This document shows, piece after piece, positions 48,578 to 63,366 of a DNA stretch of 64,000 bases. Below the pieces are notes generated by a model, which saw only the letters and a list, made by a program, of their open reading frames with translations, made no database searches and had not been told where the DNA came from. The position numbers and the translations under genes are program-made. Source of the stretch: Acetobacter sp. (GTDB taxonomy: Bacteria > Pseudomonadota > Alphaproteobacteria > Acetobacterales > Acetobacteraceae). Every line of letters begins with the position of its first letter. Within the stretch, counting starts at the first letter, position 1. The stretch spans positions 1,798,001 to 1,862,000 of the forward strand of contig NZ_JAKVME010000001.1 of the NCBI RefSeq assembly GCF_022483985.1, given 5' to 3'.

Positions 48578-48965
48578 CATGGGCCAGGCCAGATACACAG
48601 ACTTCAGGACATTCCCCCTGAACATCGTGCCCAAACTCGCGGTCGGTGACGGGTCGCCCGGCTTCTGGAAAGCTCTGGACGAGGTCTTCCCATGCACCCG
48701 TCACCAGCGTTGCTGGTTCCACAAGATCGGCAATGTCGTGAACAAGTTTCCCAAACCTATGATCCCGACCGTCAAATCGGACCTGCGCGACATTCATCAT
48801 GCCGGGCCGCGGCACAGGATGCTATGGCCATCTTCGTGGAGAAATACGCAACCAGATATCCGGCGGCCGTCAAATGCTTACCGCTGCTGGCTTTTTACGA
48901 TTTCCCGGCCGAACACTGGGAGCATCTGCGCACAACTTCTTATGCCGGATGGCCAGAAAACTTTA
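48578..48965 (+). pseudogene. IS256-family transposase fragment with frameshifts
   Basis: PKLAVGDGSPGFWKALDEVF and TRHQRCWFHKIGNVVNK, then in another frame DAMAIFVEKYATRYPAAVKC and LLAFYDFPAEHWEHLRTT. These are consecutive parts of the IS256 catalytic domain. Both ends are missing and the frame changes at least once. It ends against the toxin gene. Confidence 0.8.
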
Positions 48966-49361
48966 ATAACAAACGAAATGCTGTCGTAGCCAGACAGCAA
49001 ATGCCTCCTCTTCCATACCACCTGAAGCAAGAGCCACCATAACCTCTACCGCCTCTGGTGCATGGACCTGAATACACACCCCATTCAGTCTCAAAAACAG
49101 TAAACAGCAACTCCAGGCCGTCCGTTTGTTAGCATCATTAAAAGGGTGGTTACGGGCTATGCCATAAGCATAGGCAGCCGACAGCGTAGCCATATCTGGC
49201 GCTTCACTCTCCGCATAATGCCAACGATTTTCTGGCCGCGCTAACGCGCTATGCAATAAGTCTTCACTTTTGACGCCTTGTGTTCCGCCATATTCCCTAA
49301 GAGCCTGGTCATGCATGAACAACACCACATCAGGTTCAAGAAACTCTGGTTTCTCCGCCAT
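48963..49361 (-). CDS. Doc/Fic-family toxin
   Basis: 132 residues. Active-site motif NHPFNDANKRTA (His72 to Arg80), the phage P1 Doc-type Fic motif. FLEPDVVLFMHDQALREYGG is the Doc N-terminus. Doc toxins phosphorylate EF-Tu and stop translation. The start overlaps the antitoxin stop (TAATG). The C-terminus reaches the IS256 fragment but is probably complete. Confidence 0.92.
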   Translation of the reverse strand: MAEKPEFLEPDVVLFMHDQALREYGGTQGVKSEDLLHSALARPENRWHYAESEAPDMATLSAAYAYGIARNHPFNDANKRTAWSCCLLFLRLNGVCIQVHAPEAVEVMVALASGGMEEEAFAVWLRQHFVCY

Positions 49362-49588
49362 TACCGCTTAGCCAGCTCCTGAAGCACATCGGCCTGCTCT
49401 CGAAGCGTCTCACGCGCCATTTGCATCTGACGTTCCAACTTCAAATTACGCTTCACCAGCTTAATACCATCGGCCATCTCAACGAGTGTGAGTTCCTGCC
49501 CTACTTCCAGACCCAGCCGAATACGTGTTTCAGCAGGAAGAGTAATTCCGATAGAATTTCCCTGTTTCCGCACAACAACTGTTTCCAT
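49361..49588 (-). CDS. AbrB/MazE-type antitoxin
   Basis: 75 residues from the ATG at 49588. Swapped-hairpin DNA-binding domain: TVVVRKQGNSIGITLPAETR followed by GLEVGQELTLVEMADGIKLV. The C-terminal helix (about 48-75) should bind and inhibit the toxin. The pair Doc plus an AbrB-type partner differs from phage P1 Phd-Doc. A palindrome immediately upstream is the likely operator. Confidence 0.9.
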   Translation of the reverse strand: METVVVRKQGNSIGITLPAETRIRLGLEVGQELTLVEMADGIKLVKRNLKLERQMQMARETLREQADVLQELAKR

Positions 49589-49599
49589 GACCCATCTCC

Positions 49600-49618
49600 G
49601 TAATACGGTCCGTATTAC
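49600..49618. promoter_or_regulatory. Perfect 19-bp palindrome, operator of the toxin-antitoxin pair
   Basis: GTAATACGG (49600-49608) and CCGTATTAC (49610-49618) are perfectly inverted around one T, 12 bp upstream of the antitoxin ATG. It is the size and place expected for antitoxin autoregulation. Confidence 0.75.
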
Positions 49619-49757
49619 ATAGCAGAGACTATTGGCGCTATTCAACAACGAAACACCGAATGCGACTGGCAGAAACACATGCACCATTTTTGCACCACAT
49701 CGAGGAAGATTTCAGGTGACAAACAGTGATCTGACGTGACACAAATACCATTGTTAA

Positions 49758-51479
49758 TCATATAGTTGGAAAGATAAACGGCAGATGACTGCGGATACTT
49801 TTTGCCCTTTCACGGCGGTAACACGGGTTCGAATCCCGTACGGGACGCCACTCCCGTCCAAAACTGCGAACTTTTGGGTTCAGTTTAGGACGGTCTGAGA
49901 CGAGCTGGTTCATCAGCCTGTCTTTTCTTCCAAAAATGCGGATTTCCCTGTCATCGACCTCTATGCGATCGACGATCGCGCGGAGATATTCCTTGCGCAT
50001 GGCGACGGGACCATCGGCCAGCTTCGTCCGCAGGTCACAAGAGAAGCGTTCGATCATTTCGTCGGTAATGGCCGGCACGACCATCGCCGGGGCTTCTGCC
50101 ATCGCGCAGAGACGGCTGGCCTCATCCCGCCGGGCTTTGAGTGCATCAAGTCGTTCCTTGAGCATGGGATCGGTGACATCGACAACGCCGTTTTCGATAG
50201 CCGCGTACATTCTCTGCAACTTCTGCTCGGCTTCACGGGACGCGTTACGCAGGCTCTCCTGACGGACGGCATCACGATTCTGGTTGGCGGCATAGTGTGC
50301 CAGAAGCGCCTCCAGAATCACGCCAAGCCTGTCCTTCGTGAGCAGACGGGTGGCGAGATGCTCCATAACCAGCGTATCGAGCAGATCCATCCGGATGCTC
50401 CGTCCCTTGCAGGCCGTCTTTCCCTGCCGGGCCTGCGTCGCGCAGGTATAATAGCGATAACGACCGTATTTCCCTGTCCGCAACGTCATCCCGCCGCCAC
50501 AGGTGGCGCAGACTGCCAGCCCCGTCAGCAGACATGGACCATTGACGATCCGGGGTGCCGTCACACGCGGTGCGTTCTGTTTCAGACGCTGCTGCACCTC
50601 CAGAAACTCACTGCGGGGAATAATGACAGGAGCATCCATGGTGATCACGTCATCCGACGCTTTCTTCCGTCCCGTTTTCGCTTCGACCACGTTGAACGCA
50701 TGCGTGCCCGCATAGGTCTCGCGCGTCAGCACGTCATGAATGAATTTGCAGGAAAACCGCGAGCCGGTTTGAGTGCGGTATCCTTTTGCATTGAGGTGGC
50801 TGACGATCGCCTTGATGCCGAGCCCGCCGGACTGTCCGTCTCCATCACGGTAGAGCCCGAAGATGAGCCTGACCGTCTCCGCCTGAATGGGGTCGATCTC
50901 CAGCTTCTTCTTGACTTTCTGCCCACGACGCTCCGCTTCTACCGTGCGATAGCCGAAGGGCGGGCGGGAGCCGTTCCAGAACCCCTGCCGGGCGTTCTCG
51001 TTCATCGCGCGCAGTGTATGCTTGGCATTTTCACGGGACTGATATTCATCGAACAGCGCCAAGATCTGACGGATCATGGTGCCAGAAGAATCATTTTCCA
51101 GTTCCTGCGTGATCGAGACGAGCCTGATCTCCTGCTTCGCAAGACGTCTGACGTTGAACTCCAGATCAAAGTGATTCCGGAAAAAACGGCTGAAAGAATG
51201 CACAACGACAACATCGAAACGCCTTGGTTTTTCTGAGGCCACTTCCATCAGTTTCTGAAATTCCGGTCTCCTGTCATCTGTTGCCGAGGCTCCCGGCTCG
51301 ATAAAGACTTCAGCGACCTCCCAGCCTTTCGCGGCACAATAGGCTTCAGTCTGGCGCTGCTGATCGGGAATTGACAGGTCGTGCTCGGCCTGCCGCCCTG
51401 TTGAGACGCGCAGATAAAGGGCTGCGCGCAGGGACGGCAGTGGCCGGAGGGGGCTCGAAGCAAGGGGCAAGGATGTCAT
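49758..51479 (-). CDS. Large serine recombinase reading through a tRNA-Glu fragment
   Basis: 573 residues. Catalytic domain with Ser in LYLRVSTGRQAEHD and SRFFRNHFDLEFNVRRL. The recombinase domain is followed by a zinc ribbon (CATCGGGMTLRTGK, then YTCATQ and ACKGRSIR) and a coiled coil (about 420-470). GAGG precedes the ATG at 51479. The last about 30 residues (WRPVRDSNPCYRRERAK) are the translation of the complementary strand of a tRNA 3' half, so the gene spans an attachment site. It should integrate and excise the element to its right. Confidence 0.94.
   Translation of the reverse strand: MTSLPLASSPLRPLPSLRAALYLRVSTGRQAEHDLSIPDQQRQTEAYCAAKGWEVAEVFIEPGASATDDRRPEFQKLMEVASEKPRRFDVVVVHSFSRFFRNHFDLEFNVRRLAKQEIRLVSITQELENDSSGTMIRQILALFDEYQSRENAKHTLRAMNENARQGFWNGSRPPFGYRTVEAERRGQKVKKKLEIDPIQAETVRLIFGLYRDGDGQSGGLGIKAIVSHLNAKGYRTQTGSRFSCKFIHDVLTRETYAGTHAFNVVEAKTGRKKASDDVITMDAPVIIPRSEFLEVQQRLKQNAPRVTAPRIVNGPCLLTGLAVCATCGGGMTLRTGKYGRYRYYTCATQARQGKTACKGRSIRMDLLDTLVMEHLATRLLTKDRLGVILEALLAHYAANQNRDAVRQESLRNASREAEQKLQRMYAAIENGVVDVTDPMLKERLDALKARRDEASRLCAMAEAPAMVVPAITDEMIERFSCDLRTKLADGPVAMRKEYLRAIVDRIEVDDREIRIFGRKDRLMNQLVSDRPKLNPKVRSFGREWRPVRDSNPCYRRERAKSIRSHLPFIFPTI
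49804..49850 (+). repeat. tRNA-Glu(TTC) 3' half, putative attachment site
   Basis: The 47 nt contain the anticodon loop CTTTCAC (anticodon TTC), variable loop, T-arm ACGGG-TTCGAAT-CCCGT, acceptor ACGGGAC, G and CCA. The 5' half is absent to the left, so it is not a functional tRNA gene. It lies within the 3' end of the recombinase gene. Confidence 0.88.
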
Positions 51480-51656
51480 GGCAAAACCTCATCAGAATAT
51501 CGATTTCCGCTTTGTCGACGGGGATTTCTGGCGGCAGATCGTCCTGAACCCGCCAGTTCTGCATTTTGTGGGAGAGTGCCACGGACCGCCGCCCTGAACC
51601 AGAGTCGATCTGCCTATGCCGGACTGGTTCGCCCCGTCGGGGCAATATCGCGCGAT

Positions 51657-51887
51657 TCATGAGCGCGTATCCACAACCGGAGTGCCGATAGTCTTCTGCC
51701 TGAAAGTAATGGATCTCTGAATGTGATTATTAATACTTTCAGTTACTATAAAACGCGATCTGCCTATTTTTATCGTGACTATCCTGCCTAATGCAGCAAG
51801 TCTGTATGCTGTTTCACGTGAAAATCCGAATAATTCAGCAGTCTTACCAACGCCAATTACTTCCGAGAAATTGAATATTTCCTGCAT
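51657..51887 (-). CDS. Small HTH (excisionase-like) DNA-binding protein
   Basis: 76 residues from the ATG at 51887. The HTH is FSEVIGVGKTAELFGFSRET, followed by AYRLAALGRIVTIKIGRSRF, the wing pattern of excisionase and MerR-like helix-turn-helix proteins. The open frame continues upstream to 52028, so the true start is uncertain; no clear RBS is seen. A 19-bp hairpin overlaps this ATG. It lies 178 bp upstream of the recombinase and is a plausible directionality factor. Confidence 0.75.
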   Translation of the reverse strand: MQEIFNFSEVIGVGKTAELFGFSRETAYRLAALGRIVTIKIGRSRFIVTESINNHIQRSITFRQKTIGTPVVDTRS

Positions 51888-51931
51888 CGATGCTGCTTTC
51901 AACTCGCACTTCGTTGAAAGCAGCATCGATG
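51885..51931. promoter_or_regulatory. Perfect 19-bp hairpin across the excisionase start
   Basis: 51885-51903 and 51913-51931 are perfect inverted complements around a 9-base loop. The ATG at 51887 forms the foot of the stem. In mRNA the stem would hide the translation start unless opened. Confidence 0.8.
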
Positions 51932-52191
51932 AGGGCACGGGAAACAAAAACTGCAATTTCCGTTGCATTTTTCGGATCGAAACGAGAAATGACCCGGCAT
52001 GATGTGCACGGCCTGCCGTTCCGGTCACATCGCACTCGTATTTCCTGCGCTTATTCTACGAAAAACAGACTGGAGAGAGATTTGTCCGTTCCCGCGCCCG
52101 GTCGAACCGCTTTGCGGAAAAAACTGAATTCTGGCTTCAGGCCGCTCCAGGCACACGGCGGTTCCTGTGCAGCACGGGCTGCGTCAGGAGT

Positions 52192-53616
52192 TCATTCCGG
52201 CTTGCTATGCTGCGGTTCATAACCACCCAGTATGTTAAGAATTTTTTTGGGTAGTGGCGGAAGAACCAGAACAGGAGGTTTCATGCACGCAGGTTTTTCT
52301 TTTTCTCCCATGTCCGTTGCTACCGGGGAGACATCCGGGGAAGGTAGCTCGGGAGCAGCCATACCTACCTTGTCAGCGACGTCCTCTGTCCGATCACCAT
52401 ATATGTGTGGATCATAAGCGTAGCCATAGACCGGATCCCGCCGTGCAACAGACCCGTCATCCCGAATGACATCCAGTTCCTGCCCGATCACCTCTGGCAG
52501 AGAAAGATCACTCTGCAGCCACGCGATATCCGAAGCGCGGAGCAGAGACCGGCTTCCCGGGGCGGAAGGCTTTTTCAGACCCCAGTCCTGAAACCACAGC
52601 GCATAACCAAGCGTCGCCCGGGTCATACCTCCATCCCGCGGATCGTCCATGAAACTCCGGCCCGCTGTCAGATAGCCAGGATCAGTTTCACATGTCGGGC
52701 GGTAGGGAGGCCACACGTCGTCCGTGGGATGTATCGGCAGATAGGCACGGCAGGCCAGAACATCCATGGCGGCGAGAATATGCGCGACAGGTCTGAAATA
52801 TTTAATCATCTCCGCAAGCGTGCGTTTGCTGAGATGATTCTTTTCTCTCTCGTTGTTTTCCTGTTCCTCGCTGGCTTCCCGTTTTCTTTTTCTCAGCACG
52901 CGCGAAGGGGTGGAGGACTCCATCACATAATCATCAATAGTGCTGAACGGATCAATCCCCCTGTCCCCCGCCTGAAACACGTGCAGGCAACGCTCCCACG
53001 ATATGGGTATGTCGGGATGATGCAGCGACAGACGGGCGGCGATATGCACCGCCCGGCCAATGTAGCGGCAGCCCTCTTCAATGATGGTGGCCCGGATCGC
53101 ACTATATTCTGAAAAACCGTACCGTGGCATGGCCGTTTTCAGCCTCGTGCCGATATCGGCAATCCGCATCTGCAACCGCCAGAGATCATGCTCCTGATAG
53201 AGGTTCTGGAGTTCGAGAGCCCTGTCGAGACTGGAGAGCGGCTGCGTGTGGATCTGGTCGTGCAGTTTCCGCCTGACCGAGCCAAGATCATCCAGCGTCT
53301 GGAGGTCGAACGGCCTGAGAAAATCCAGGAACTGCCGCCCCGATGTGCGCTGGCAGGCCAGCAACTGCAGATGCTGCCGTTCCAGAAGCATCATTTCCAG
53401 ATGGAGACAGTCGTCCGTGACGGGAGATGACCTGTCACGGCTATCGGAGCACATGGTGCTGTGTTTCTGCACCCTGCTCCGGCGCCCGGCCGTAAAATCC
53501 CTTTCGGCAGCGACGAGAAGACCCTGAAGAGCAAAATTGTCGCTCTCGCACAGTCGATCGGAATCGAAGAAAACCGGAACTTTTTCTGACGTTATTCCCG
53601 CTTTTCTCGTGGACAT
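52192..53616 (-). CDS. Unknown 474-residue protein (orphan gene A)
   Basis: Start at the ATG 53616, which has GGAAGAG upstream; a start at 53652 is possible. Helical N-terminal half with a Cys/Arg-rich stretch, then a highly charged spacer (RVLRKRKREASEEQ, NNEREKNHL) and a Trp/Tyr/Pro-rich C-terminal half ending with a Pro-rich tail. No signal peptide, no membrane helix. I do not recognise the family. It is in a run of four minus-strand genes leading to the recombinase and may be a replication, partition or regulatory protein of the element. Confidence 0.75.
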   Translation of the reverse strand: MSTRKAGITSEKVPVFFDSDRLCESDNFALQGLLVAAERDFTAGRRSRVQKHSTMCSDSRDRSSPVTDDCLHLEMMLLERQHLQLLACQRTSGRQFLDFLRPFDLQTLDDLGSVRRKLHDQIHTQPLSSLDRALELQNLYQEHDLWRLQMRIADIGTRLKTAMPRYGFSEYSAIRATIIEEGCRYIGRAVHIAARLSLHHPDIPISWERCLHVFQAGDRGIDPFSTIDDYVMESSTPSRVLRKRKREASEEQENNEREKNHLSKRTLAEMIKYFRPVAHILAAMDVLACRAYLPIHPTDDVWPPYRPTCETDPGYLTAGRSFMDDPRDGGMTRATLGYALWFQDWGLKKPSAPGSRSLLRASDIAWLQSDLSLPEVIGQELDVIRDDGSVARRDPVYGYAYDPHIYGDRTEDVADKVGMAAPELPSPDVSPVATDMGEKEKPACMKPPVLVLPPLPKKILNILGGYEPQHSKPE

Positions 53617-53711
53617 AACTGATCTCTTCCGGTTAGCAGTTTTCAATGTCACGGCGTACAGTCAACGAGACTAAATTCCCGTGAAGTGACGTGATCGTCT
53701 GCTTGAGCCCA

Positions 53712-54929
53712 TTAATGTTCATGTATTTGACGCGCTTGCGCGGATGTCTCCTCCGTGCTCTGACTTTCCGTTTCATCATATCTGTAACCATTTCGAACCG
53801 GCATAATAAACTCGTGTAGTAGCTGTCGTATGTCTTCTTTCAGAAGATGGGAATCCTTACCATCTTCTGACACGCGCACAGGAAGTGGTTCCTCGCTAAA
53901 GACACGATGAAAATGTTCAAGAATATCAAAGTTATCCATCGCCATCTGCATAAGACCGAATAAATCTCTTTTTCCAAAATCTGAGAGGATCAGAAATCGT
54001 AAAAGAGCAGCTTCGTCCTTTTTCGGTCTCGCTATGCCGATTTCTGACATCTTGTCATGAGTTGTTATGCGATTTCGTTTCTTCCCAATTTTTCTTACGT
54101 CAATGATCATTTTTGAGAGACCATATCTCATCTTAACAAGTAGCGAGAGGCATTCTTCTATGCCCAATCTGTCAACAAGAGATTCAGTGATTCTGTAGTT
54201 TCCCAGATTCAATTCAATCTTCCGAAATATATCTAATAAATATATTTTTCGAGTGGCCATTTCCTCGGTAAACTGCGGGAAATATGCTTTTAGAGAGTTA
54301 CGCTGGTGCGGGGGATATAAAGGAGCGATACCAAACCCGTAGACTGACTGCTGCATTGTCCGATAGTGCCAGTTTGCAAAAAAGCCCATCCATAGAAATG
54401 CAGCAATGCGTAGTGGCGCCCGGACCGAAACTGGCTTCGGAGAACCGGTGAGATTTGTTTCGGACAGGCCGGGATGAATACTCATCGCACCAGCCAAACG
54501 TACTGTGGAAATAAAGCGAACTTCTGCTTCTGGCAAAGGGTATGTTTGCAGTATCTCCATAAATAGATTACGCGTACAGTCGATAAAACCAATCTTCTCC
54601 TGATTTCGTCTGCAAAAATCGAAAAAACGGGCCATCAGAATGTGCTGTGTTCGTGATGGGTCGAAAACAAACCCGATGTATCCATCAAATACGTTTGAAG
54701 ACGTATCTTCTCTGACAAGAGTATTCAAACCATCAAGTATACTCTCATCCATTTTAAGTATGGCACGCTTTGCTATTGCATCTATTGCCGCCTTCCCATC
54801 AGGACCCAGAATCTGTTTCGAGAGTATCTCGGCACGTCCAGGCATGATGCGGCCGCCAGTTTCGCGGATGAATTCGACAACTTCCACTGAACCAAGTCGC
54901 GCCTCATCGTACGGAGTGTGGTGTGCCAT
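53712..54929 (-). CDS. Unknown 405-residue protein (orphan gene B)
   Basis: Start at the ATG 54929 with GGAGG 10 bases upstream. Mostly helical. It contains GYIGFVFDPSRTQHILMARF, MSIHPGLSETNLTG and a basic region MIIDVRKIGKKRNRITTHDK. No known motif. Codon use is lower in GC than in the neighbouring chromosome, as is the whole segment to 55.6 kb. It is first in the leftward operon. The stretch 54930-55631 upstream is AT-rich and non-coding. Confidence 0.75.
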   Translation of the reverse strand: MAHHTPYDEARLGSVEVVEFIRETGGRIMPGRAEILSKQILGPDGKAAIDAIAKRAILKMDESILDGLNTLVREDTSSNVFDGYIGFVFDPSRTQHILMARFFDFCRRNQEKIGFIDCTRNLFMEILQTYPLPEAEVRFISTVRLAGAMSIHPGLSETNLTGSPKPVSVRAPLRIAAFLWMGFFANWHYRTMQQSVYGFGIAPLYPPHQRNSLKAYFPQFTEEMATRKIYLLDIFRKIELNLGNYRITESLVDRLGIEECLSLLVKMRYGLSKMIIDVRKIGKKRNRITTHDKMSEIGIARPKKDEAALLRFLILSDFGKRDLFGLMQMAMDNFDILEHFHRVFSEEPLPVRVSEDGKDSHLLKEDIRQLLHEFIMPVRNGYRYDETESQSTEETSAQARQIHEH

Positions 54930-55631
54930 GATCAACAAACCTCCATCAAAAGTATGCGTGGAAAATAATTACTTTTCCAAGCGGCTTTAAAAGAAAAAGA
55001 CCCACTCTAGACTACACAAATCAGGATTTTATCTGGCATCACAAGAAATGACTGCCTTCTTTTCCTGTCACTCTTTGCGTCGCTTTCCAGACCATAGCAC
55101 ACTCATTTTTCAGACATTTTCTATGTACTCTTGTTTTTTTTCCTCAAAATCAGGAAAAATTTCAGATAGGCATCATGTTGCAAACATTACTCACAAAATC
55201 GTGAATTAAATCCAGACTTTAAAAAATATCAAAATATAACAAGTCATTATGTCTTTTTGACTCAGGTAATTATCGTGACATTGCGGAGAAAAGTCGCAAA
55301 AAGACGCTCAATCTAATTAAAAAAAATTTACCATTTTTTTCTTGATTTGAGGCTCGGAATAATAATTTGACCTGACCGAGTCAAAGTCCTTTTGGAAATC
55401 AGTCATCGAACGCCAAATCGGCGTTACCGAGTACACGCATAGCATCGGAAAGCAGCCGATTCCCATCACGCCTCGTCAATGTGGAAGTTTTCCTCCGCGT
55501 TCAGTTCGGCGCTGTCAGTCTTTCCCAAAAAGACTCCCAGAGACATCCAGTGGCATGCGCTTTGGAAAAGACTGCCGTATTGTCATTATGAATCGATACA
55601 TTCGTTTTTTTCGCACTTGAGTCTGCAGCGT

Positions 55632-56160
55632 TGAATCAGATAGCGAACTGCTCCCAGAGCAAAATCGGCAGACAAATCCCGTTTTCTGCATCAAGACACC
55701 TGAAAAAAGGGCCTTCACAGCATACTATCTTTCCCGAAAACGGCGGCCTTCATAGTATGCACGAATCAGATTCCAATCTGCTCAGGAGACCAGATCGGCA
55801 GAAAACTCCTGTTTTCTGCACCAAGACACCTGAAAAAAGGGTCTTCGCAGCATACTGTCTTTCCCGACAACGGCTGTCTTCATAGTATGCACGAATCAGA
55901 TTCCAATCTGCTCAGGAGACCAGATCGGCAGAAAACTCCTGTTTTCTGCATCAAGACACCTGAAAAAAGGGTCTTCGCAGCATACTGTCTTTCCCGACAA
56001 CGGCTGTCTTCATAGTACGCACGAATCAGATTCCAATCTGCTCAGGAGACCAGATCGGCAGAAAACTCCTGTTTTCTGGACCTGCACCCCAGAAAAAAAG
56101 GGGCTTCCCAGCATACTGTATTCGCAGAAAATGGCTGTCTTCATAGTATGCACGAATCAC
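55632..56160. repeat. Array of about four 130-bp tandem repeats
   Basis: The anchor ATCGGCAGA begins at 55664, 55794, 55924 and 56054, an exact 130-bp period. Copies 2 and 3 differ by few bases; 1 and 4 are more diverged. Each unit carries an inverted repeat GCAGAAAAC-4-GTTTTCTGC (for example 55798-55819) and GCATACT...AGTATGC (55850-55856, 55884-55890). The array lies between divergent orphan operons, next to AT-rich DNA. A replication origin, partition site or operator array is possible. Confidence 0.92.
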
Positions 56161-56196
56161 TTATCCCGCCAAACAAACCAAAAACCGCAGAAAACC

Positions 56197-56219
56197 TAAC
56201 GATCCGTCCCAGATCGTTA
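56197..56219. promoter_or_regulatory. Inverted repeat near the 130-bp array
   Basis: TAACGATC (56197-56204) and GATCGTTA (56212-56219) around 7 bases; operator-like dyad between the array and the rightward genes. Confidence 0.5.
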
Positions 56220-56522
56220 CCCAATCGCACAAAACTACGACCATTGCCGCCATAAAACCCTCGACAATGGCCGCACAGGCCGGTCTGGAAACCCGCCCGC
56301 ATAAGAACCCTCGGATTCCTGCCCGGCCGGCCTACAGACCGTTTCTAAGACCTGTTTGCGGTATGATCGACGAACACATGCACCACAAAAACTCCAGAAC
56401 GGGTCAAATCTATCCCCGCAAGGGATTTAAGGCACGATACCGCATTTTGGTGCGCAGGGCGCACGCAAAACGCCGAAAAACGACGGTTTTCTGCCATTTT
56501 TCGCATGGTCCTTCGAACGTCG

Positions 56523-56574
56523 CCGGATGCGCGCCTGACGGCGCGACTTTGACCCCGTCAAAGTCTGCATCCGG
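56523..56574. other. Near-perfect three-way-junction sequence
   Basis: Three nested stems use almost every base: 8 bp (56523-56530 with 56567-56574), 5 bp (56531-56535 with 56540-56544, loop TGAC) and 9 bp (56545-56553 with 56557-56565, loop CCC). Only T56566 is unpaired at the junction. It lies 167 bp upstream of the first rightward gene, in a 580-bp region (56161-56740) with no convincing gene. It may be a structured leader RNA or a cruciform recognised by a protein. Confidence 0.75.
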
Positions 56575-56740
56575 GAAACCGGAAGACGAGGGCTGAGAGA
56601 AGATGGTCGGACAGAGAGACATCCCCGGTTCTGAGGGCTGGCGATGAAGGGACTGGTCCCTTCGTTCCCAGAGAGAAGGACGTGGCGTTTGGGCCTGTGT
56701 GCTCCCGCCGTGTCCTTCCTCGCCTTTCAGGACATGTTTC

Positions 56741-57505
56741 ATGACACGAATTTCGTCTTCCTTTTTCTCTCCTGCCTCGCCGGTCAGTGCGTTGCGCTCT
56801 GACGTGGGACAGCTCACGTCCCTTCGCCTGCGTCTGCTCAGCTGGTGGCCGGCCAGACCCATGACCGGCTTTGCCGAGGGCAGCCGCTTCGTGGTCGTGG
56901 TGCAGAATATCCTCTGGACCCCGCTCACCGTTTCTACTGTATGGGATTACGTCCGCACGATGGAGTTGCATCATGACGCCAACGGACGGCTGTGCTTCGA
57001 TGAACCGCTGGTCTTTGCCGAAGATGGCATGGACGCACCGAACGCCATCGCCGTCTTCAACTACCATTTTCTGCGGCGCTTCCTCGCGGAGGATGATCCG
57101 GCTCTGACCCTGCCGGGTCTGTGCCTGTATCGCGCGGCCGGGGAACTCTGGCCGCATCTAATGTTCCATACCCCGATGAGTCTGATCGTGCATGCCGCGT
57201 CCAGCGGGCGACTGGCGGGTCTCGTCCCTGAAGATCTTCTGGGACTGACCGACCCGCAGAGGGATCTGATGCTGTTTGACGCTCTGAGCCGGCAGATCAA
57301 CCCATCGGACCTGATCTGCCTGTCGGCCTCCACAGCGGTGGATGCTGCCCCTGTCATCAACGGTCTGGCTGTGGACCCACACTGGTTCAGCACGGCGTGC
57401 GCGCCCGGCTACAGCCTGCAGGCCGGCCTGGAACATCTCGGTGTGCTCGAATGTCCCGAAGAGGATGATCTACTGCCGTTCGATCTGTCCTTCCGGGGCC
57501 ACTGA
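56741..57505 (+). CDS. Unknown 254-residue protein (orphan gene C)
   Basis: Start at the ATG 56741 with AGGA upstream. Soluble protein, acidic overall, with LLSWWPARPMTGFAEGSRFV, NYHFLRRFLAEDDPALTLPG and LICLSASTAVDAAPVING. I do not recognise the family. It is the first of three rightward genes that end at the 58.8-kb terminator. Confidence 0.75.
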   Translation: MTRISSSFFSPASPVSALRSDVGQLTSLRLRLLSWWPARPMTGFAEGSRFVVVVQNILWTPLTVSTVWDYVRTMELHHDANGRLCFDEPLVFAEDGMDAPNAIAVFNYHFLRRFLAEDDPALTLPGLCLYRAAGELWPHLMFHTPMSLIVHAASSGRLAGLVPEDLLGLTDPQRDLMLFDALSRQINPSDLICLSASTAVDAAPVINGLAVDPHWFSTACAPGYSLQAGLEHLGVLECPEEDDLLPFDLSFRGH

Positions 57506-57643
57506 ACGCTTTTTCTTTCCCTATCTCCACCACCTGTTTTTTTCATGGCCTGCCTCAGACGGCTTTTTCGGACACCGGACGTTTCCAGACGTCCCGGTGT
57601 CGATCTGCGTCTGCAGGGCAGGCAGGAACAAGGATTATCCGCT

Positions 57644-57877
57644 ATGTCTGCTGACCATTTCTCTCTGCCCCGCACTGGCCTCGACCGGCTGATTGATGTC
57701 TGGCTGCAGATGCACGACGTGCTGCTGCCCGCCCTGTGTGTCGCCCGCGATGACGGTCCGGACGACACGCTGCACTTTGGCCGCCCGCTGGAAGGCCATG
57801 TGCTGCTGCTCGGCGATCTCCTCGAAGATTTTGGCGAGACGCTTCAGGATGTCATGGACAGTCCCGCTTCGGCGTGA
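57644..57877 (+). CDS. Unknown 77-residue acidic protein
   Basis: ATG at 57644 with AAGGAT upstream. The sequence is helical and acidic: GLDRLIDVWLQMHDVLLPAL then GDLLEDFGETLQDVMD. The size and charge would suit a small regulator or anti-protein. The preceding 57506-57643 is non-coding. Function unknown. Confidence 0.65.
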   Translation: MSADHFSLPRTGLDRLIDVWLQMHDVLLPALCVARDDGPDDTLHFGRPLEGHVLLLGDLLEDFGETLQDVMDSPASA

Positions 57878-57995
57878 ATGCCGGCCTCTGCTCTGCCTCT
57901 TTCTGGTCGTCAGGCCATCCTCCTCAAACCCAGATCAACACTCTGCCATCAGACAGAAACCGTTCTGTCCGATGGCTCTGCACAGGATTTTCACC

Positions 57996-58769
57996 ATGCG
58001 TTCTCAGATTACACGCCACCAGACAGGCCGACATGGCGTATCCCGTGCCACCCGCCGTCTTCGCCACACCCGTCGTCTCTCGCCGTGGGATGCAACGGAC
58101 GAGGACCTGCAGTTCATGGCAGCACTCACCGAACGGCTGGGCGCACCGCCGGTCTCGAACATGATGCGTTATTGCGGCCCGGAAGCGCGGCATCTGGACC
58201 AGCTAGGCGAAAGCCTCGGCGACTGGCGGCGGATGCTCGAAGCACTCGCCCGGCGTTATCCGGATCTGCCGCAATCGGGACAGCGGGCGTCCGACGGCAC
58301 GATACTGGATTCTGCGCCCGAGCGCATCGTCTGGGAGACCCTCGTGCAGATGGTTCCCGATGAACTGGAGCTGTGCTGCCATCCCTGGCTGGAAGAAGGG
58401 CGTTATCTGCGCAGCGATTTCGGTCTCTGTGCACCGGACGATAACACCCCTCTGGTGTGCATCGAGGTGATGGGCATGCTGGGCTCCGACCGGATCTGCC
58501 GGGCGGACGTCGAGGAAGCCTCTCTGGACCGTCTGGCGAAGAAGGAAGACTGGTTCAGTCAGCCGGACCGTCCGCTGCTGCGGGTGATCTGGCTCGACAT
58601 GATGGCGCACCCGGACTGGCTGGAGGCAATCTGTTCAGAAGCCATCGAAGCGGCTGTCGCTCAGCTTGTCTGCAACGGGGAGGAACGTCGCACATCGGTG
58701 CCGGATCGTAGTGCACGATATGGGAAGCGACGTTCTCTTCCTGTTTCACGCTGGCGAACGCGTGAGTGA
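57996..58769 (+). CDS. Unknown protein with a possible PD-(D/E)XK nuclease-like core
   Basis: 257 residues from the ATG at 57996 (AGGA upstream; ATG 57972 is an alternative). An N-terminal basic tail precedes a helical part. The C-terminal half has the pattern E (SAPERIVWETLVQM), then RSDFGLCAPDDN, then LVCIEVMGMLGSD, then a helix and RVIWLDMMAHPDWL. D, then about 13 residues to IEVxG, resembles the metal-binding core of PD-(D/E)XK proteins such as DUF559, although the usual Lys is Met here. Function is therefore uncertain. Confidence 0.75.
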   Translation: MRSQITRHQTGRHGVSRATRRLRHTRRLSPWDATDEDLQFMAALTERLGAPPVSNMMRYCGPEARHLDQLGESLGDWRRMLEALARRYPDLPQSGQRASDGTILDSAPERIVWETLVQMVPDELELCCHPWLEEGRYLRSDFGLCAPDDNTPLVCIEVMGMLGSDRICRADVEEASLDRLAKKEDWFSQPDRPLLRVIWLDMMAHPDWLEAICSEAIEAAVAQLVCNGEERRTSVPDRSARYGKRRSLPVSRWRTRE

Positions 58770-58779
58770 GAAATGGCAG

Positions 58780-58805
58780 CCAGCCTTCCTTTTTTAGAAG
58801 GCTGG
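58780..58805. terminator. Bidirectional terminator
   Basis: 9-bp stem (58780-58788 with 58797-58805) and T-rich loop, between the convergent genes ending at 58769 and 58813. Confidence 0.75.
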
Positions 58806-58812
58806 TTATCAT

Positions 58813-59361
58813 TCAGTCCTTTTTGTCATCCTGTGGCGGCAGCAGTTCAGGCTTTCTCTCGTCCTGCTGTGTGTCAACCTTCTGTGCCTTCTCGATCCTG
58901 GTTGCACGCCACAGCAGGACGGGAGCGGCAAGGAGAAACAGAATGCCGGAACCGGGCGTGAAATAGAGATGGAAGGTCGAGAACGCAAAAAAGAAGCTGC
59001 TTGTCTCTGTCTGCGATGATTGCAGAAAAACATAGATTTTGACGAGACAGAACAGCGTCATGCCCCATGACGCACGATCACAGTAAAGACGGGGGATATT
59101 GAAGGAGGCGCGCCGACGACTGAGGTAGGAGGCACCAAAACAGGCGATGGTCAGCCAGAGTATGATGCCCAGAATACGAAACCCGCTGAAACCGGCTTGC
59201 TGAACCGAATTCATGCCGCGTTCGACATGGCGGTAAGCGCAGGACAGAACCCCCGCCAGAACGGTGCTGCCCAGCGCAACCAGGACAAGTTCATCCGGGG
59301 TCTCCCAGAACAGACCCAACCGGGCCCTGATCCCTTCGAAATCGATGTCGTGGCTGTTCAT
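58813..59361 (-). CDS. Unknown membrane protein with about four helices
   Basis: 182 residues. Hydrophobic segments at about 24-42 (LVLVALGSTVLAGVLSCAY), 60-78, 95-112 and 128-150, then a charged C-terminus (about 35 residues, ending PPQDDKKD). Last gene of the run 60592-58813. I do not recognise the family. Confidence 0.75.
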   Translation of the reverse strand: MNSHDIDFEGIRARLGLFWETPDELVLVALGSTVLAGVLSCAYRHVERGMNSVQQAGFSGFRILGIILWLTIACFGASYLSRRRASFNIPRLYCDRASWGMTLFCLVKIYVFLQSSQTETSSFFFAFSTFHLYFTPGSGILFLLAAPVLLWRATRIEKAQKVDTQQDERKPELLPPQDDKKD

Positions 59362-59396
59362 GACGGGTTCTTTTTGTTCCGTTCGTTGCGCGCAGT

Positions 59397-60023
59397 TCAG
59401 TATTTCACGACGGCGTCACAGTCCCTGACGGTTCTGTTCACAGCGACCGTTTTTTCGGAGATCGTGTGATCCTTTTCATTGATCCGGAACAGCACGCGGT
59501 TGCCCTCTTGCGGAGCAGTCCGATCTTTTGGGTTTTCCTCGTTGTTACTGTAAAAACAGCCGTGTTTTGTGGAATGATGGCTTTCCGGCGCACCTGTGCT
59601 GTCAAAGGTCAGGGCATAGGTGGTGCAGCGCAGAGGCACATTTCCGGCGTTCACGTCATTCGCAGCCTGATCGCACGCGCTGTTGTAAGGCACGAACGCG
59701 ACGATGGTCCGGTCGTCCGATGTCCTGAAAACCTGATAAAGCATCGGTGTGTAGTCAAAATTCCCCAGCGCGTCCTTTATCCCGGCACTGCGGAGTTTCC
59801 GGATAAGGTCATAGGGTGGCACGCCGTTCTGGTGGTCATTGGCGCTGCTGTTGGGGAAATTCCCCTGCGCCGCCTGTTTCCAGTTACCGTTGCTGGCCGG
59901 ATCGCTGAGCGCCAGAAGCGGCGATGACATGTCGGCTGGACTCATGGAGGCCGCTGAGGCCAGAGCCGGTGCTGTGGTCATCGCAAGGGCCAGAGCAATG
60001 GCTGAAAGACGTTTGCTGGTCAT
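59397..60023 (-). CDS. Unknown secreted protein
   Basis: 208 residues. Signal peptide at 1-25 (MTSKRLSAIALALAMTTAPA, cleavage near ASA). The mature protein is hydrophilic with four Cys (NSACDQAAND, LRCTTYALTF, KHGCFYSNNE, VRDCDAVVKY), likely disulphides in the periplasm. Unknown family. Located 35 bp before the membrane-protein gene on the same strand. Confidence 0.8.
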   Translation of the reverse strand: MTSKRLSAIALALAMTTAPALASAASMSPADMSSPLLALSDPASNGNWKQAAQGNFPNSSANDHQNGVPPYDLIRKLRSAGIKDALGNFDYTPMLYQVFRTSDDRTIVAFVPYNSACDQAANDVNAGNVPLRCTTYALTFDSTGAPESHHSTKHGCFYSNNEENPKDRTAPQEGNRVLFRINEKDHTISEKTVAVNRTVRDCDAVVKY

Positions 60024-60108
60024 GTTGAGGCCTTCCCGAGGAGCCTGACATCGTCATCAGTCCTCTGTTTTGCATTTTGAAAGAAAAGAGTTTTTCGAAG
60101 ACAGATAT

Positions 60109-60408
60109 TCAGTCGATCCCGTAGAACTTCCGCCGTTCTTCTGCGGTCCTGCATTTTTCCAGCATCGGCCTGCGGGGATAGACCCAGGCGGCAAGCCCGA
60201 AACAGAACACGATGACCGGATGAAAGGGGATCGATATGACGATCCCGCAGATGACGCAGACGCAGGCACAGAACAACGTCATGTCACGAAGCTCCTTGCG
60301 GTTTGCGGCTTCTTCCGCGCCATATTCTTCTTCATAGGCGGCAAGGCGGGCAGCCTTTTTATCGACGCCGCTCTCACCGGGCTGCAGAATGGTATCATTG
60401 AGGGGCAT
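60109..60408 (-). CDS. Small membrane protein, 99 residues
   Basis: Start at the ATG 60408 preceded by GGGAGA; an ATG at 60429 would add 7 residues and overlap the upstream gene. A charged helix (KKAARLAAYEEEYGAEEAAN) precedes two membrane segments (LFCACVCVICGIVISIPF, VIVFCFGLAAWVYPRR). Function unknown. Confidence 0.72.
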   Translation of the reverse strand: MPLNDTILQPGESGVDKKAARLAAYEEEYGAEEAANRKELRDMTLFCACVCVICGIVISIPFHPVIVFCFGLAAWVYPRRPMLEKCRTAEERRKFYGID

Positions 60409-60421
60409 CGTGCTCTCCCGG

Positions 60422-60592
60422 TCAGTCATGACGGTGGAACAGAAACATGCACGCGAGATAGGAGCAGATCATGATGAGGCTCGGAGAGAGGACATCACTC
60501 GTTATGAGCCAGTCGCTGAATTTATTCAGGTACACCAGCAGGATGATCCCGCCCACCACGACGACGAAGACAAGGGCTGTCAGAAGCAGCAT
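60422..60592 (-). CDS. 56-residue two-helix membrane peptide
   Basis: MLLLTALVFVVVVGGIILLV, then SDVLSPSLIMICSYLACMFL and a basic end. AGGAG lies upstream of the ATG at 60592; an ATG at 60613 would give 63 residues. First of four minus-strand small genes behind the repressor gene. Confidence 0.65.
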   Translation of the reverse strand: MLLLTALVFVVVVGGIILLVYLNKFSDWLITSDVLSPSLIMICSYLACMFLFHRHD

Positions 60593-60829
60593 GTCAGGAT
60601 GCTCCTGCGCCATAACGGACAGGAAGCACGCTGAACGACGCGATCCGACAGGCTGTGCGATCGAAAACTGACAGAGACACCATCATGACCTCCCGATGGC
60701 AGAAGGGCGGAAAGCGCCGGCCCTGCGTGCCTGATGAGAGGGATAATTTACGAGATATCGCCTGCCGTCAATACGACATATCGTATTTCTTGACAGTCAG
60801 CTCTTCGCCGGTCGTTTCCGGCCGGGTCG

Positions 60830-61519
60830 TTACGGCCGGGGCACGCCGCCGGTCCACACAACTTCACCCAGCAGCCGGAAGCAGCCCAGCTGGTTTTCTT
60901 CGACATCCTGCGGCGGGTAGCGGTGGTTGTCGGCTATGACCCGTACGCCACCGCCCAGACGGGGATCGAGACGGCGGATCAGCAGCGTGCCGCTGCTTTC
61001 CAGCGCATAGAGGGCGCTGGCCGTGATGGTCGTCACGCTACGGTCGACGATCACCAGATCGCCCGAGGCCAGCGTGGGCTCCATCGCATCGCCCTCGCTG
61101 GTCATCAGGCAGAGGGCCGAGAGATCACGGGGGATGGCGCTCTGCAGCCAGTCACGACTGATCCGCAGGCCGTCCTCGTGATTGTCGTGCCAGGGAATGA
61201 CAATCTGTCGGGTGATGCTGGCTGCTCCGTCCGGACTGTCAGTTCCCGGACCGGCACCGTTGCCAAAGGCCAGCCAGTCCAGGGAGACGCCACAGACGCG
61301 GGCCAGTGAGGCGATGGCGGAGAACTTCATCTCGCCACCATTCATATAATCCCGCAGGGTCGTGTAGGGGACGCCGGCGGCCTTTGCGGCGTGGGTGATG
61401 CCGATGCTCTGGGCGGCTTCACGGAGACGCTCGCCACGCTCGCGCATCAGGCGGATCTGTTCATCCATGAGCTTGCGCTTCTGTCTGCGTTTGCGGGCCA
61501 CGCCTGTTGTCCTCATCAC
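60830..61519 (-). CDS. Phage-type repressor with a catalytically dead S24 (LexA/CI) domain
   Basis: 229 residues. Basic N-terminus, then an HTH at about 35-75 (AAQSIGITHAAKAAGVPYTT, LRDYMNGGEM). The C-terminal S24 fold is at about 105-225 (TSEGDAMEPTLASGDLVIVD, NHRYPPQDVEENQL). In active members the motif is GDSM and a Lys follows in the next strand. Here Ser is replaced by Ala145 and the Lys position is Arg182 (LLIRRLDP), so self-cleavage should be lost. It would then be a repressor not inactivated by RecA. It probably controls the small-gene run downstream. Confidence 0.9.
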   Translation of the reverse strand: MMRTTGVARKRRQKRKLMDEQIRLMRERGERLREAAQSIGITHAAKAAGVPYTTLRDYMNGGEMKFSAIASLARVCGVSLDWLAFGNGAGPGTDSPDGAASITRQIVIPWHDNHEDGLRISRDWLQSAIPRDLSALCLMTSEGDAMEPTLASGDLVIVDRSVTTITASALYALESSGTLLIRRLDPRLGGGVRVIADNHRYPPQDVEENQLGCFRLLGEVVWTGGVPRP

Positions 61520-61658
61520 AAAATGAGAACGCTACACGGATTTCCGCTTGATATGTAAGTCGGAAAAACGTAGTTCTGTGAATCGAAATGTTGCGGGACC
61601 CGTCACTCGTCATGGTCAGATCCTCGCACAGAAACGGCGTTCTGTCGAAGGGATTATC

Positions 61659-61874
61659 ATGCCTGAAGATCCGCTCCTGCCACCGCCCGCACACATGCCA
61701 GGTCTTGAGGACCTCCATGCCGGACTGCATGACGTGCTGCGTCTGATCGAGATTGAACATGCCCTGCTGCGCGGGCGGCTGGAAAGCCTGAAGGCTGACA
61801 GCGAAGGGGCGAGGCTGCTGGAGGGGGTGATGGTGCTCGGCGCCGTGCTTCAGCAGAGGATGGCCGGGTTGTAG
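61659..61874 (+). CDS. Unknown 71-residue protein
   Basis: ATG at 61659 with AGGGA upstream. One amphipathic helical block (LEDLHAGLHDVLRLIEIEHA) and a second (LLEGVMVLGAVLQQRMAGL). It is divergent from the repressor gene with 139 bp between, and so is a possible repressor-controlled gene. 61875-62139 shows nothing. Confidence 0.6.
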   Translation: MPEDPLLPPPAHMPGLEDLHAGLHDVLRLIEIEHALLRGRLESLKADSEGARLLEGVMVLGAVLQQRMAGL

Positions 61875-62139
61875 CAGATCTGCCGGGAGATCGGGAGGCT
61901 GTGAGGAGTTCTGTTGAACAAATCGCTTATGGTGCCGTACCGATAAGGTCTTGTGAGCAGATTACTGCTCTTATCTGCCTCAAGCAGCCATCTGGAGTGA
62001 GCGGATTGATATTTGCCAACTCATGCGGCCTGCTGTTGCCAATCTGTTACTTTGCAGTGGTGTTCACGATCAATGCACAAGACCTCATGATGGAGTGGAT
62101 TGCACGAAGATTTTTCTCTCATCCAGCCACGCCTCCATC

Positions 62140-63366
62140 TCAGGAGAGTAAATTTTCCCGAGAAGCAGAGTCCCGTTTTTTGGGTGCGGATTTTGATAGC
62201 ACGACGGGTTTGTCCATCGTTTGCAGAAATCTGTCAGCCAAAACTATGTAAAGAGGCTTGGGACAGATAATCCGAGAAACGCCAAACGCCAGAAAGGCTG
62301 TTGCAAGTAATGCAAGTGTCACCTGCTGATCGTCACAGATTTCCATGACAATAATTGTAGCTGTCAAAGGTGATTGTGCAACACCACAGAAATAGGCAAC
62401 TGTACCCAGAAGCACGACCGCACCCGGTGTCGTATGTGGTAGAAACTGCTCGATCCATCCGCCGATCCCCGCTCCGATTGCGAGAGACGGCGCGAACATT
62501 CCCCCCGGAATACCCGAACAGTACGAAATCAGCATCGAGAGATATTTCAGGATAAAGAACGAGGCAGGATAATGGTCTGTTCCTGCGAAAATCGCCTTTG
62601 CCTGCGCATAACCCGTTCCATAAGTACTGCCTTTGGAAACCAGACCGATCAGAGCGGTCAACAGTCCGCAAAGTGCTGAAAACATGATCGGTCGCCGCTT
62701 AGCCAGTCGACCGACAGAGCCTGGCAGGCCGGCTGATGCCTTGATGACCAGCACTGCAAAACTGCCTCCTGCCAGAGGAGTATTGAAAGCGGCAGCCATG
62801 CCTGCTGCTCCGCCTGCCAGAATCATACTGCGTTTGGACACGATATTAGATTGCCCAAGCAGCCGGGAAAAAACGTGCATGATGGTGGCGCCGATCTGCA
62901 CACTTGGGCCTTCGCGACCGATGGACGCACCACAGATAAGACCAAAGCATGTTAAGATGATTTTTCCAGCAGAAATCTTTAGGGTGAGTATTCGGTCGAT
63001 AACGTCATAATTCCCCATATGCAACGTCGCAATTGTCTGTGGAATACCTGAACCTTGTGCCCCCTTGAAACAAGTTTGTGTCATCCATGTAATGAAGGCA
63101 AAACCAGATGGTGCCAGAACAAGCAAGGCCCACGGGTGCCATATTACAAGTCGGGTCCGGAGGTCTGCGCATTGATCACCCAACCTCGCAAACAGCACGG
63201 CAGTCAAACCGACAATGATCGCGCCAACCCAGTAAAGACTCATCCTGCGCCAGCGTGTGGTCCTTACAAGTAATGTTCGTCTGAGATGGTGCATCCAGCC
63301 CTTGCGATGAGTGAATGGTTTTACAGGAACAGAAGATTGATCTGACACAGGAGGCGTCCATAGCAC
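62140..63366 (-). CDS. ClC-family chloride channel/transporter with an internal deletion
   Basis: 408 residues. Chloride-site motifs are present: GSGIPQT, GREGPSVQIGATI, GMAAAFNTPLAG, GIPGGMFAPSLAIGAGIG and SPLTATIIVMEI. After NTPLAG the sequence passes straight to GGSFAVLVIKASAGLPGSVG, whereas family members carry about 70 more residues there (including the FxxEE segment with E202/E203 of the E. coli protein). The frame is intact. Transport is doubtful. The gene is outside the recombinase element. Confidence 0.88.
   Translation of the reverse strand: MLWTPPVSDQSSVPVKPFTHRKGWMHHLRRTLLVRTTRWRRMSLYWVGAIIVGLTAVLFARLGDQCADLRTRLVIWHPWALLVLAPSGFAFITWMTQTCFKGAQGSGIPQTIATLHMGNYDVIDRILTLKISAGKIILTCFGLICGASIGREGPSVQIGATIMHVFSRLLGQSNIVSKRSMILAGGAAGMAAAFNTPLAGGSFAVLVIKASAGLPGSVGRLAKRRPIMFSALCGLLTALIGLVSKGSTYGTGYAQAKAIFAGTDHYPASFFILKYLSMLISYCSGIPGGMFAPSLAIGAGIGGWIEQFLPHTTPGAVVLLGTVAYFCGVAQSPLTATIIVMEICDDQQVTLALLATAFLAFGVSRIICPKPLYIVLADRFLQTMDKPVVLSKSAPKKRDSASRENLLS

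Follow-up and report, generated by a model that had tools for sequence, protein, structure and literature searches.

What kind of mobile element brings a large serine recombinase, a 130-bp repeat array and a series of orphan genes to the end of a tRNA gene? This question is raised by a divergent gene block at positions 49758-61874 of a 64,000-nucleotide stretch (the window, C1:1798001-1862000) of the 3.7-Mb genome of an Acetobacter sp. (G000); positions below are those of the window unless a contig or locus is named. Comparison with 397 Acetobacteraceae genomes indicates that the block belongs to a real, undescribed element family close to the integrative and mobilizable elements (IMEs), and that the window copy is without relaxase. 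We consider it likely that the block is a relaxase-less derivative of a family of IMEs combining a serine recombinase with a MobF relaxase, and that the 3' end of a tRNA-Glu gene was its point of entry. Its place near the IMEs follows from its complete relatives, which carry a MobF (TrwC) relaxase and a site like an origin of transfer (oriT).

In the proposed model, entry would most likely be catalyzed by the element's own large serine recombinase, leaving the 3' end of the tRNA intact. In the complete form of the family, the recombinase, a 474-amino-acid (aa) protein and a MobF relaxase operon are encoded leftward, the oriT-like site lies in the divergent gap, and a module of regulator, nuclease-fold and membrane proteins is encoded rightward. 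In the window copy the relaxase operon is missing, with a 405-aa gene in its position, and the gap contains the array and a variant oriT-like motif. The recombinase would excise the element as a circle and reintegrate it at tRNA-Glu, and transfer, if it still occurs, would need the relaxase and mating machinery of another element. Because its relaxase is lost, the window copy, if still mobile, probably depends on other elements to move.

Layout of the block and its tRNA end

The original prediction described two divergent gene sets flanking a 130-bp array, with small membrane or secreted proteins and a repressor, and this layout is confirmed by the open reading frames (ORFs) and by the array call of TRF (55664-56159, period 130, 3.8 copies, 92% matches, score 801). 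At the DNA level the right half of the block is 89-95% identical in three other species and the left half 92-97% identical in two, so that the ORFs can be taken as genes rather than chance ORFs. The search of other Acetobacteraceae that had been proposed recovers the same divergent layout in five genomes (G023, G001, G166, G418 and G110), with the 474- and 257-aa genes divergent on one contig, 1.5-9 kb apart, and a serine recombinase beyond the 474-aa gene. The two families occur in 10 and 22 of the 397 genomes, respectively. Acetobacter fallax LMG 1636, of the same genus as the window, has its gene order (474-aa, then 405-aa). In G009, one contig ends with tRNA-Met, a recombinase, the 474-aa gene and repeats, while a second ends with a like repeat followed by the 254-77-257 set, and the two contigs are presumably linked. 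The claim that this is an undescribed integrative element, neither prophage nor integrative and conjugative element (ICE), also stands: no capsid, packaging or tail gene is found, the only significant PHROG matches being of integrase and repressor types, and no type IV secretion or coupling-protein family is matched among the block proteins searched (Pfam, NCBIfam). The conditions that had been named as refuting gave a mixed outcome: the block recurs in other genomes as a conserved chromosomal unit and is not found under a recognised name in plasmid or phage collections, but its right half is also found without the recombinase.

The left end is exact. It is marked by a tRNA-Glu 3' fragment that matches the intact tRNA-Glu at C1:1789133-1789208 with 100% identity over the 3' portion of that gene. 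The recombinase begins directly after the CCA of this fragment, and its final codons are tRNA antisense. In G008 (two copies) and A. fallax, block homology starts at the same point and the DNA to the left differs. The fragment in A. fallax is the CTC isoacceptor, so the tRNA-Glu fragments at these recombinases represent two isoacceptors. Since both alleles are intact to the CCA, the crossover is placed at the 3' end of the tRNA, either inside GGGACGCCA or immediately behind it. The original boundaries must therefore be revised: the fragment had been overlooked, the conserved part reaches 61905, and the true right end was not found.

The intact tRNA-Glu(TTC), directly followed by a tyrosine integrase, lies ~58.6 kb to the left of the fragment. 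This pairing suggests most simply that the DNA from the intact tRNA to 49850 is one tyrosine-integrase island, whose right attachment (att) scar is the same 49804-49850 fragment. Most of the window is thus part of this ~58.6-kb island, and the DNA left of 49804 does not belong to the serine-recombinase element. As read from the sequence, two islands stand in tandem at tRNA-Glu, the serine-recombinase block being the second.

The window recombinase has the domains of large serine recombinases (Pfam Resolvase 8.7e-31, Recombinase 8.7e-15, Zn_ribbon_recom 2.2e-16) and a PHROG integrase match (3e-103). Copies 92-96% identical are present in G008 (two, on C198 and C199) and A. fallax, beside tRNA-Glu fragments. 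The adjoining 76-aa gene, whose helix-turn-helix (HTH) match is just below cutoff, also adjoins the recombinase in G008 and G043. More distant recombinases run into tRNA genes as well: their 3' ends enter an intact tRNA-Met in five genomes (L149, L150, L151, L154, L155), and in G059 (L062) a 49%-identical recombinase enters tRNA-Ser. Since these genes run into the tRNAs, the C-termini of their products are encoded by tRNA antisense. For L156 the tRNA-Met at the recombinase end is only partial, no such overlap is seen in L108 or in the L157 copies, and L152 is cut by a contig end. The five tRNA-Met copies of G110 share their upstream DNA; the similarity extends through the tRNA and is lost at its 3' end. 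One of these sites is occupied, and two others (L183, L184) carry related recombinase DNA in which an 11-nt core, CCCCGCAACCA, is repeated 60-66 bp apart, so that DNA of this recombinase family follows three of the five copies. An 11-nt apparent attR in this genome was rejected, as it lies inside an unrelated gene.

MobF relaxases and the oriT-like site

In L149, L150 and L151 (G166, G110 and G418) a ~1350-aa TrwC-type relaxase is encoded between the 474-aa gene and the gap (Pfam TrwC 8.5e-39; NCBIfam MobF 149 bits, cutoff 100), and it is 44-51% identical to plasmid mobF products. With G008, relatives in four genomes carry this relaxase. The claim that conjugation genes are absent is thus correct for the window copy but not for its relatives. 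The 474-aa family adjoins the MobF relaxase in these relatives, and on the G008 relaxase contig the 474-aa gene lies directly downstream, with 94.5% DNA identity to that of the window; the overlap of this contig with each of the two recombinase contigs is exactly 39 bp. The window is homologous to the G008 relaxase-bearing element as far as 53627, immediately ahead of the 474-aa start; next in the window comes the 405-aa gene. No TrwC-family relaxase is found in the window element or in the whole genome. The 405-aa protein shows no similarity to the relaxase and no match in plasmids or phages, and its homologues are confined to G043 (90%), G017 (35%) and G008 (broken). Short matches obtained with a first profile of this protein (A5) were spurious, arising from insertion-sequence read-through in one row.

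The gap of the relaxase-bearing elements holds a hairpin, CAGACCAAGGCACC-CTT-GGTGCG, seen in full at three loci and cut at a contig end in L153. Plasmids of Roseomonas mucosa, Lichenicola cladoniae and Methylobacterium bullatum also carry its core, a short distance ahead of a small ORF and mobF. This conserved hairpin is likely the oriT of the relaxase lineage; together with its flank it presumably resembles MOBF origins such as those of R388 and F, which we take as a lead only. In the window the gap holds the motif AAGGCAC-N11-TTGGTGCG at 56428-56454, followed by a hairpin, GTGCGC-AGG-GCGCAC. The half-sites are those of the oriT-like site in the relaxase-bearing relatives and mobF plasmids, the pattern appears in 3 of 20,000 shuffled gaps, and a 26-nt block is kept as far as the distant G023. 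Wide-spaced half-sites are also present in G017, G009 and the distant G023/G001, and no relaxase is seen beside any of them. A search of 72,556 plasmids gives no significant match to the window motif, ICEs as helpers not having been searched; a weak plasmid match to 55385-55536 lies away from a relaxase start and was not used.

Each copy of the window array contains a hairpin, GCAGAAAAC-TCCT-GTTTTCTGC, and a second inverted repeat. The DNA has a folding z of -2.6, and no Rfam family is found in the region. Related repeats occupy the same position in G009, and G023 has a different, ~62-bp array. Among the relaxase-less elements, the three whose gap can be read (window, G009, G023) all have a tandem array; none of the three relaxase-bearing elements with a full gap does. 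These numbers are small and the relation is a correlation only; any role of the array is conjectural.

Weighing the explanations

Several observations weigh against the reading of the block as a relaxase-less IME derivative. The window recombinase is only ~24% identical to those of the tRNA-Met group, which suggests that the family swaps recombinases. The half-sites in the window are ~10 nt further apart than in the oriT-like site, so the motif may be decayed or only an operator. As the genome has no relaxase gene of this family, it offers no MobF helper now. No right end (attR) is found: to the right of the block neither the tRNA 3' end nor the left terminus is convincingly repeated. The rightward module, moreover, is present in G017 with no recombinase and is found on tyrosine-integrase islands.

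Some of these points would suit a decayed, immobile remnant of a mobilizable element that lost its relaxase and right end by deletion and the activity of insertion sequences, the rest being kept for its rightward cargo or by chance. This explanation accounts for the missing relaxase and attR and for the altered oriT-like motif; sequence past 61905 is moreover not common to the relatives, and the flank is rich in insertion sequences. The block genes, however, are open and conserved, and elements without relaxase are found repeatedly (window, A. fallax, G009, G023/G001). This recurrence, with an array in all three readable gaps, suggests a selected variant rather than random loss, and we consider a remnant rather unlikely, though a serious alternative.

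An integrated plasmid, with the 474-aa protein as replication initiator and the array as iteron origin, is improbable. The array does lie beside the conserved 474-aa gene, and a P-loop, ParA-like gene was noticed by inspection in relatives (not confirmed by Pfam). Yet the 474-aa protein has no homologue in the 72,556 plasmids and no replication domain was found; relaxase-bearing relatives keep the gene without an array and the recombinases end at tRNAs. It is improbable, too, that the repressor-like gene and the recombinase serve a phage satellite or a cryptic prophage: the S24-type regulator with its PHROG repressor match and the serine integrase would fit, but no structural, packaging or replication gene is matched, the 405-, 257- and 474-aa proteins have no relatives in viral contigs, and the relatives carry a relaxase. 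That a recombinase module merely abuts a separate cargo island by chance, as the right half alone in G017 and similar genes on tyrosine-integrase islands might suggest, is largely refuted by the divergent layout shared on single contigs in five other genomes, with common intergenic motifs.

The preferred reading, a relaxase-less IME derivative, can be compared with known systems. The complete relatives resemble canonical IMEs in having their own recombinase, an apparently fixed integration site, a relaxase and an oriT-like site, and the window element encodes its own recombinase and no relaxase. In a 2017 review, no IME has a MobF relaxase, no canonical IME is found in Proteobacteria, and the IMEs with serine recombinases disrupt genes (PMC5704250), whereas the family described here joins a serine recombinase to MobF and leaves the 3' end of the tRNA preserved. 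The mobilizable genomic islands (MGIs) of SXT-type ICEs are similar in that they have no relaxase, a candidate oriT-like site and a possible dependence on helpers, but those in the review use tyrosine integrases (PMC5704250), and the window element has a serine recombinase and no known helper. A later paper lists MOBF IMEs of a different type in Mesorhizobium (PMC8627217). These traACD elements are likewise alphaproteobacterial, with a MOBF relaxase beside tRNA genes and divergent transfer genes flanking oriT, but they have a Ti-type TraA locus. As in Islander tRNA-gene islands, a tRNA 3' fragment marks the end and tandem islands share one tRNA. In 2014 serine integrases were not known to target tRNA genes (PMC4383910); those at tRNAs may already be catalogued in TIGER/Islander site tables, the literature covered here being open-access.

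For the family as a whole, we put forward a wider model that is possible rather than probable. At least three sequence groups of serine recombinases, at tRNA-Glu, tRNA-Met and tRNA-Ser, would use tRNA 3' ends without disruption, integration completing the recombinase gene with tRNA antisense. Some members would carry a MobF relaxase and oriT; in others the relaxase would have given way to a tandem array, with an oriT-like site of altered spacing that lets a foreign relaxase move them. A serine integrase at tRNA and a MobF relaxase are joined in one family of acetic acid bacteria, and the related elements with and without relaxase form a natural series for asking how the loss of the relaxase leaves spread possible. 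If recombinases act at the 3' ends of tRNAs and disrupt no gene, they would be useful integration tools as well.

Rightward module and neighbouring DNA

Table 1. Features of the block, in window positions
Feature	Position	Strand	Remarks
tRNA-Glu(TTC) 3' fragment, 47 bp, through CCA	49804-49850	+	att scar, element's left end
Large serine recombinase	49758-51479	-	3' end overlaps tRNA fragment
Small HTH protein, 76 aa, excisionase-like candidate	51657-51887	-	HTH_17 1.2e-05
474-aa protein, conserved core gene	52192-53616	-	family in 10/397 genomes
405-aa orphan, in position of relaxase operon	53712-54929	-	few homologues
Tandem repeat array, 130 bp, ~4 copies	55633-56159	none	
Variant oriT-like motif and hairpin	56428-56466	+	
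254-aa protein, opens rightward set	56741-57505	+	
77-aa small protein	57644-57877	+	87-96% in relatives
257-aa protein, restriction-endonuclease-like fold	57996-58769	+	AlphaFold2 (AF2) model
182-aa protein, probably membrane	58813-59361	-	
208-aa protein, apparent signal peptide	59397-60023	-	
106-aa small protein, probably membrane	60109-60429	-	
63-aa small protein, probably membrane	60422-60613	-	
HTH and S24 regulator without catalytic Ser and Lys	60830-61519	-	
108-aa small protein	61548-61874	+	94-99% in relatives

The 405-, 474-, 254- and 257-aa proteins have no significant match in Pfam, PHROG, NCBIfam or PADLOC. Structural modelling of the orphans, which had been advised, gives a nuclease-like fold for the 257-aa protein but no fold match for the 474-aa protein, predicted to be mostly helical (AF2 pLDDT 62). 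The core of the 257-aa model (pLDDT ~90) has the alpha-beta3-alpha-beta arrangement of restriction-like nucleases, with Z 10.5 against the I-Bth0305I catalytic domain and 9.7 against 3hrl; since the classical lysine is absent (E-V-x-G), nuclease activity is uncertain. The 254-aa protein is kept at 92-95% in G008, G009 and G017. Its alignment with the 220-aa neighbour in distant relatives (hhalign E 0.003, probability 10%) is weak and no more than suggestive of homology, and profiles of the 474- and 220-aa families find nothing in the PDB. Among the smaller proteins, the 182-aa one is kept in G008, G009 and G017, with a distant copy in G049; the 208-aa one is 93% identical in G008 and unmatched in the other copies; the 106-aa one is 96-97% identical in G009 and G017, with distant copies in G023 and G049; and the 63-aa one is 90-95% identical in G009 and G017. 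The gene at 60830-61519, predicted to encode a phage-type repressor, does have the S24 (Pfam 2.7e-13) and HTH_3 (1.1e-05) domains and a PHROG repressor match, but both the window protein and its relatives have substitutions at the catalytic Ser and Lys positions (GDAMEPTL, LIRRL). Among the homologues read, most have Ser to Ala and Lys to Arg; in one of seven only the Ser change is detected by this test.

The module or its parts occur both with serine-recombinase elements and on tyrosine-integrase islands at tRNA-Glu (own C2, G019, G443). In G017 (L096, L097, on C1) two module copies, 98.6% identical, stand inverted and 1.35 Mb apart, without an adjoining recombinase. PADLOC has no match for the module, which is probably a portable maintenance or defence package. 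In the same genome as the window, a 5.1-kb tyrosine-integrase island at tRNA-Glu(CTC) (L022, G000:C2:300908-306111) encodes a 211-aa distant homologue of the 257-aa protein and a 72-aa partner.

On the right, homology common to the relatives ends at 61905 and the sequence beyond is not shared. The chromosomal genes found 3' of tRNA-Glu in G027 are not recognised within ~100 kb in the own genome, so the island array may extend further right. Several elements lose homology at GGGGGG.AAGCGGAATGTC (L096 12694, L149 14504, L151 16839, L099, L104, L106); as ends of L149, L151, L096 and L097 these sites were rejected, the motif being dispersed in intergenic DNA. The tyrosine-integrase island to the left spans C1:1789208 (~8.8 kb left of the window) to 49850, with a very large, repetitive hemagglutinin-like ORF near its left end and a Doc/AbrB-type toxin-antitoxin pair (48963-49687) at its right end. 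Just right of the element lie two separate ClC-type channel genes (62140-63366, and L021 2401-5033), the second split by an insertion sequence.

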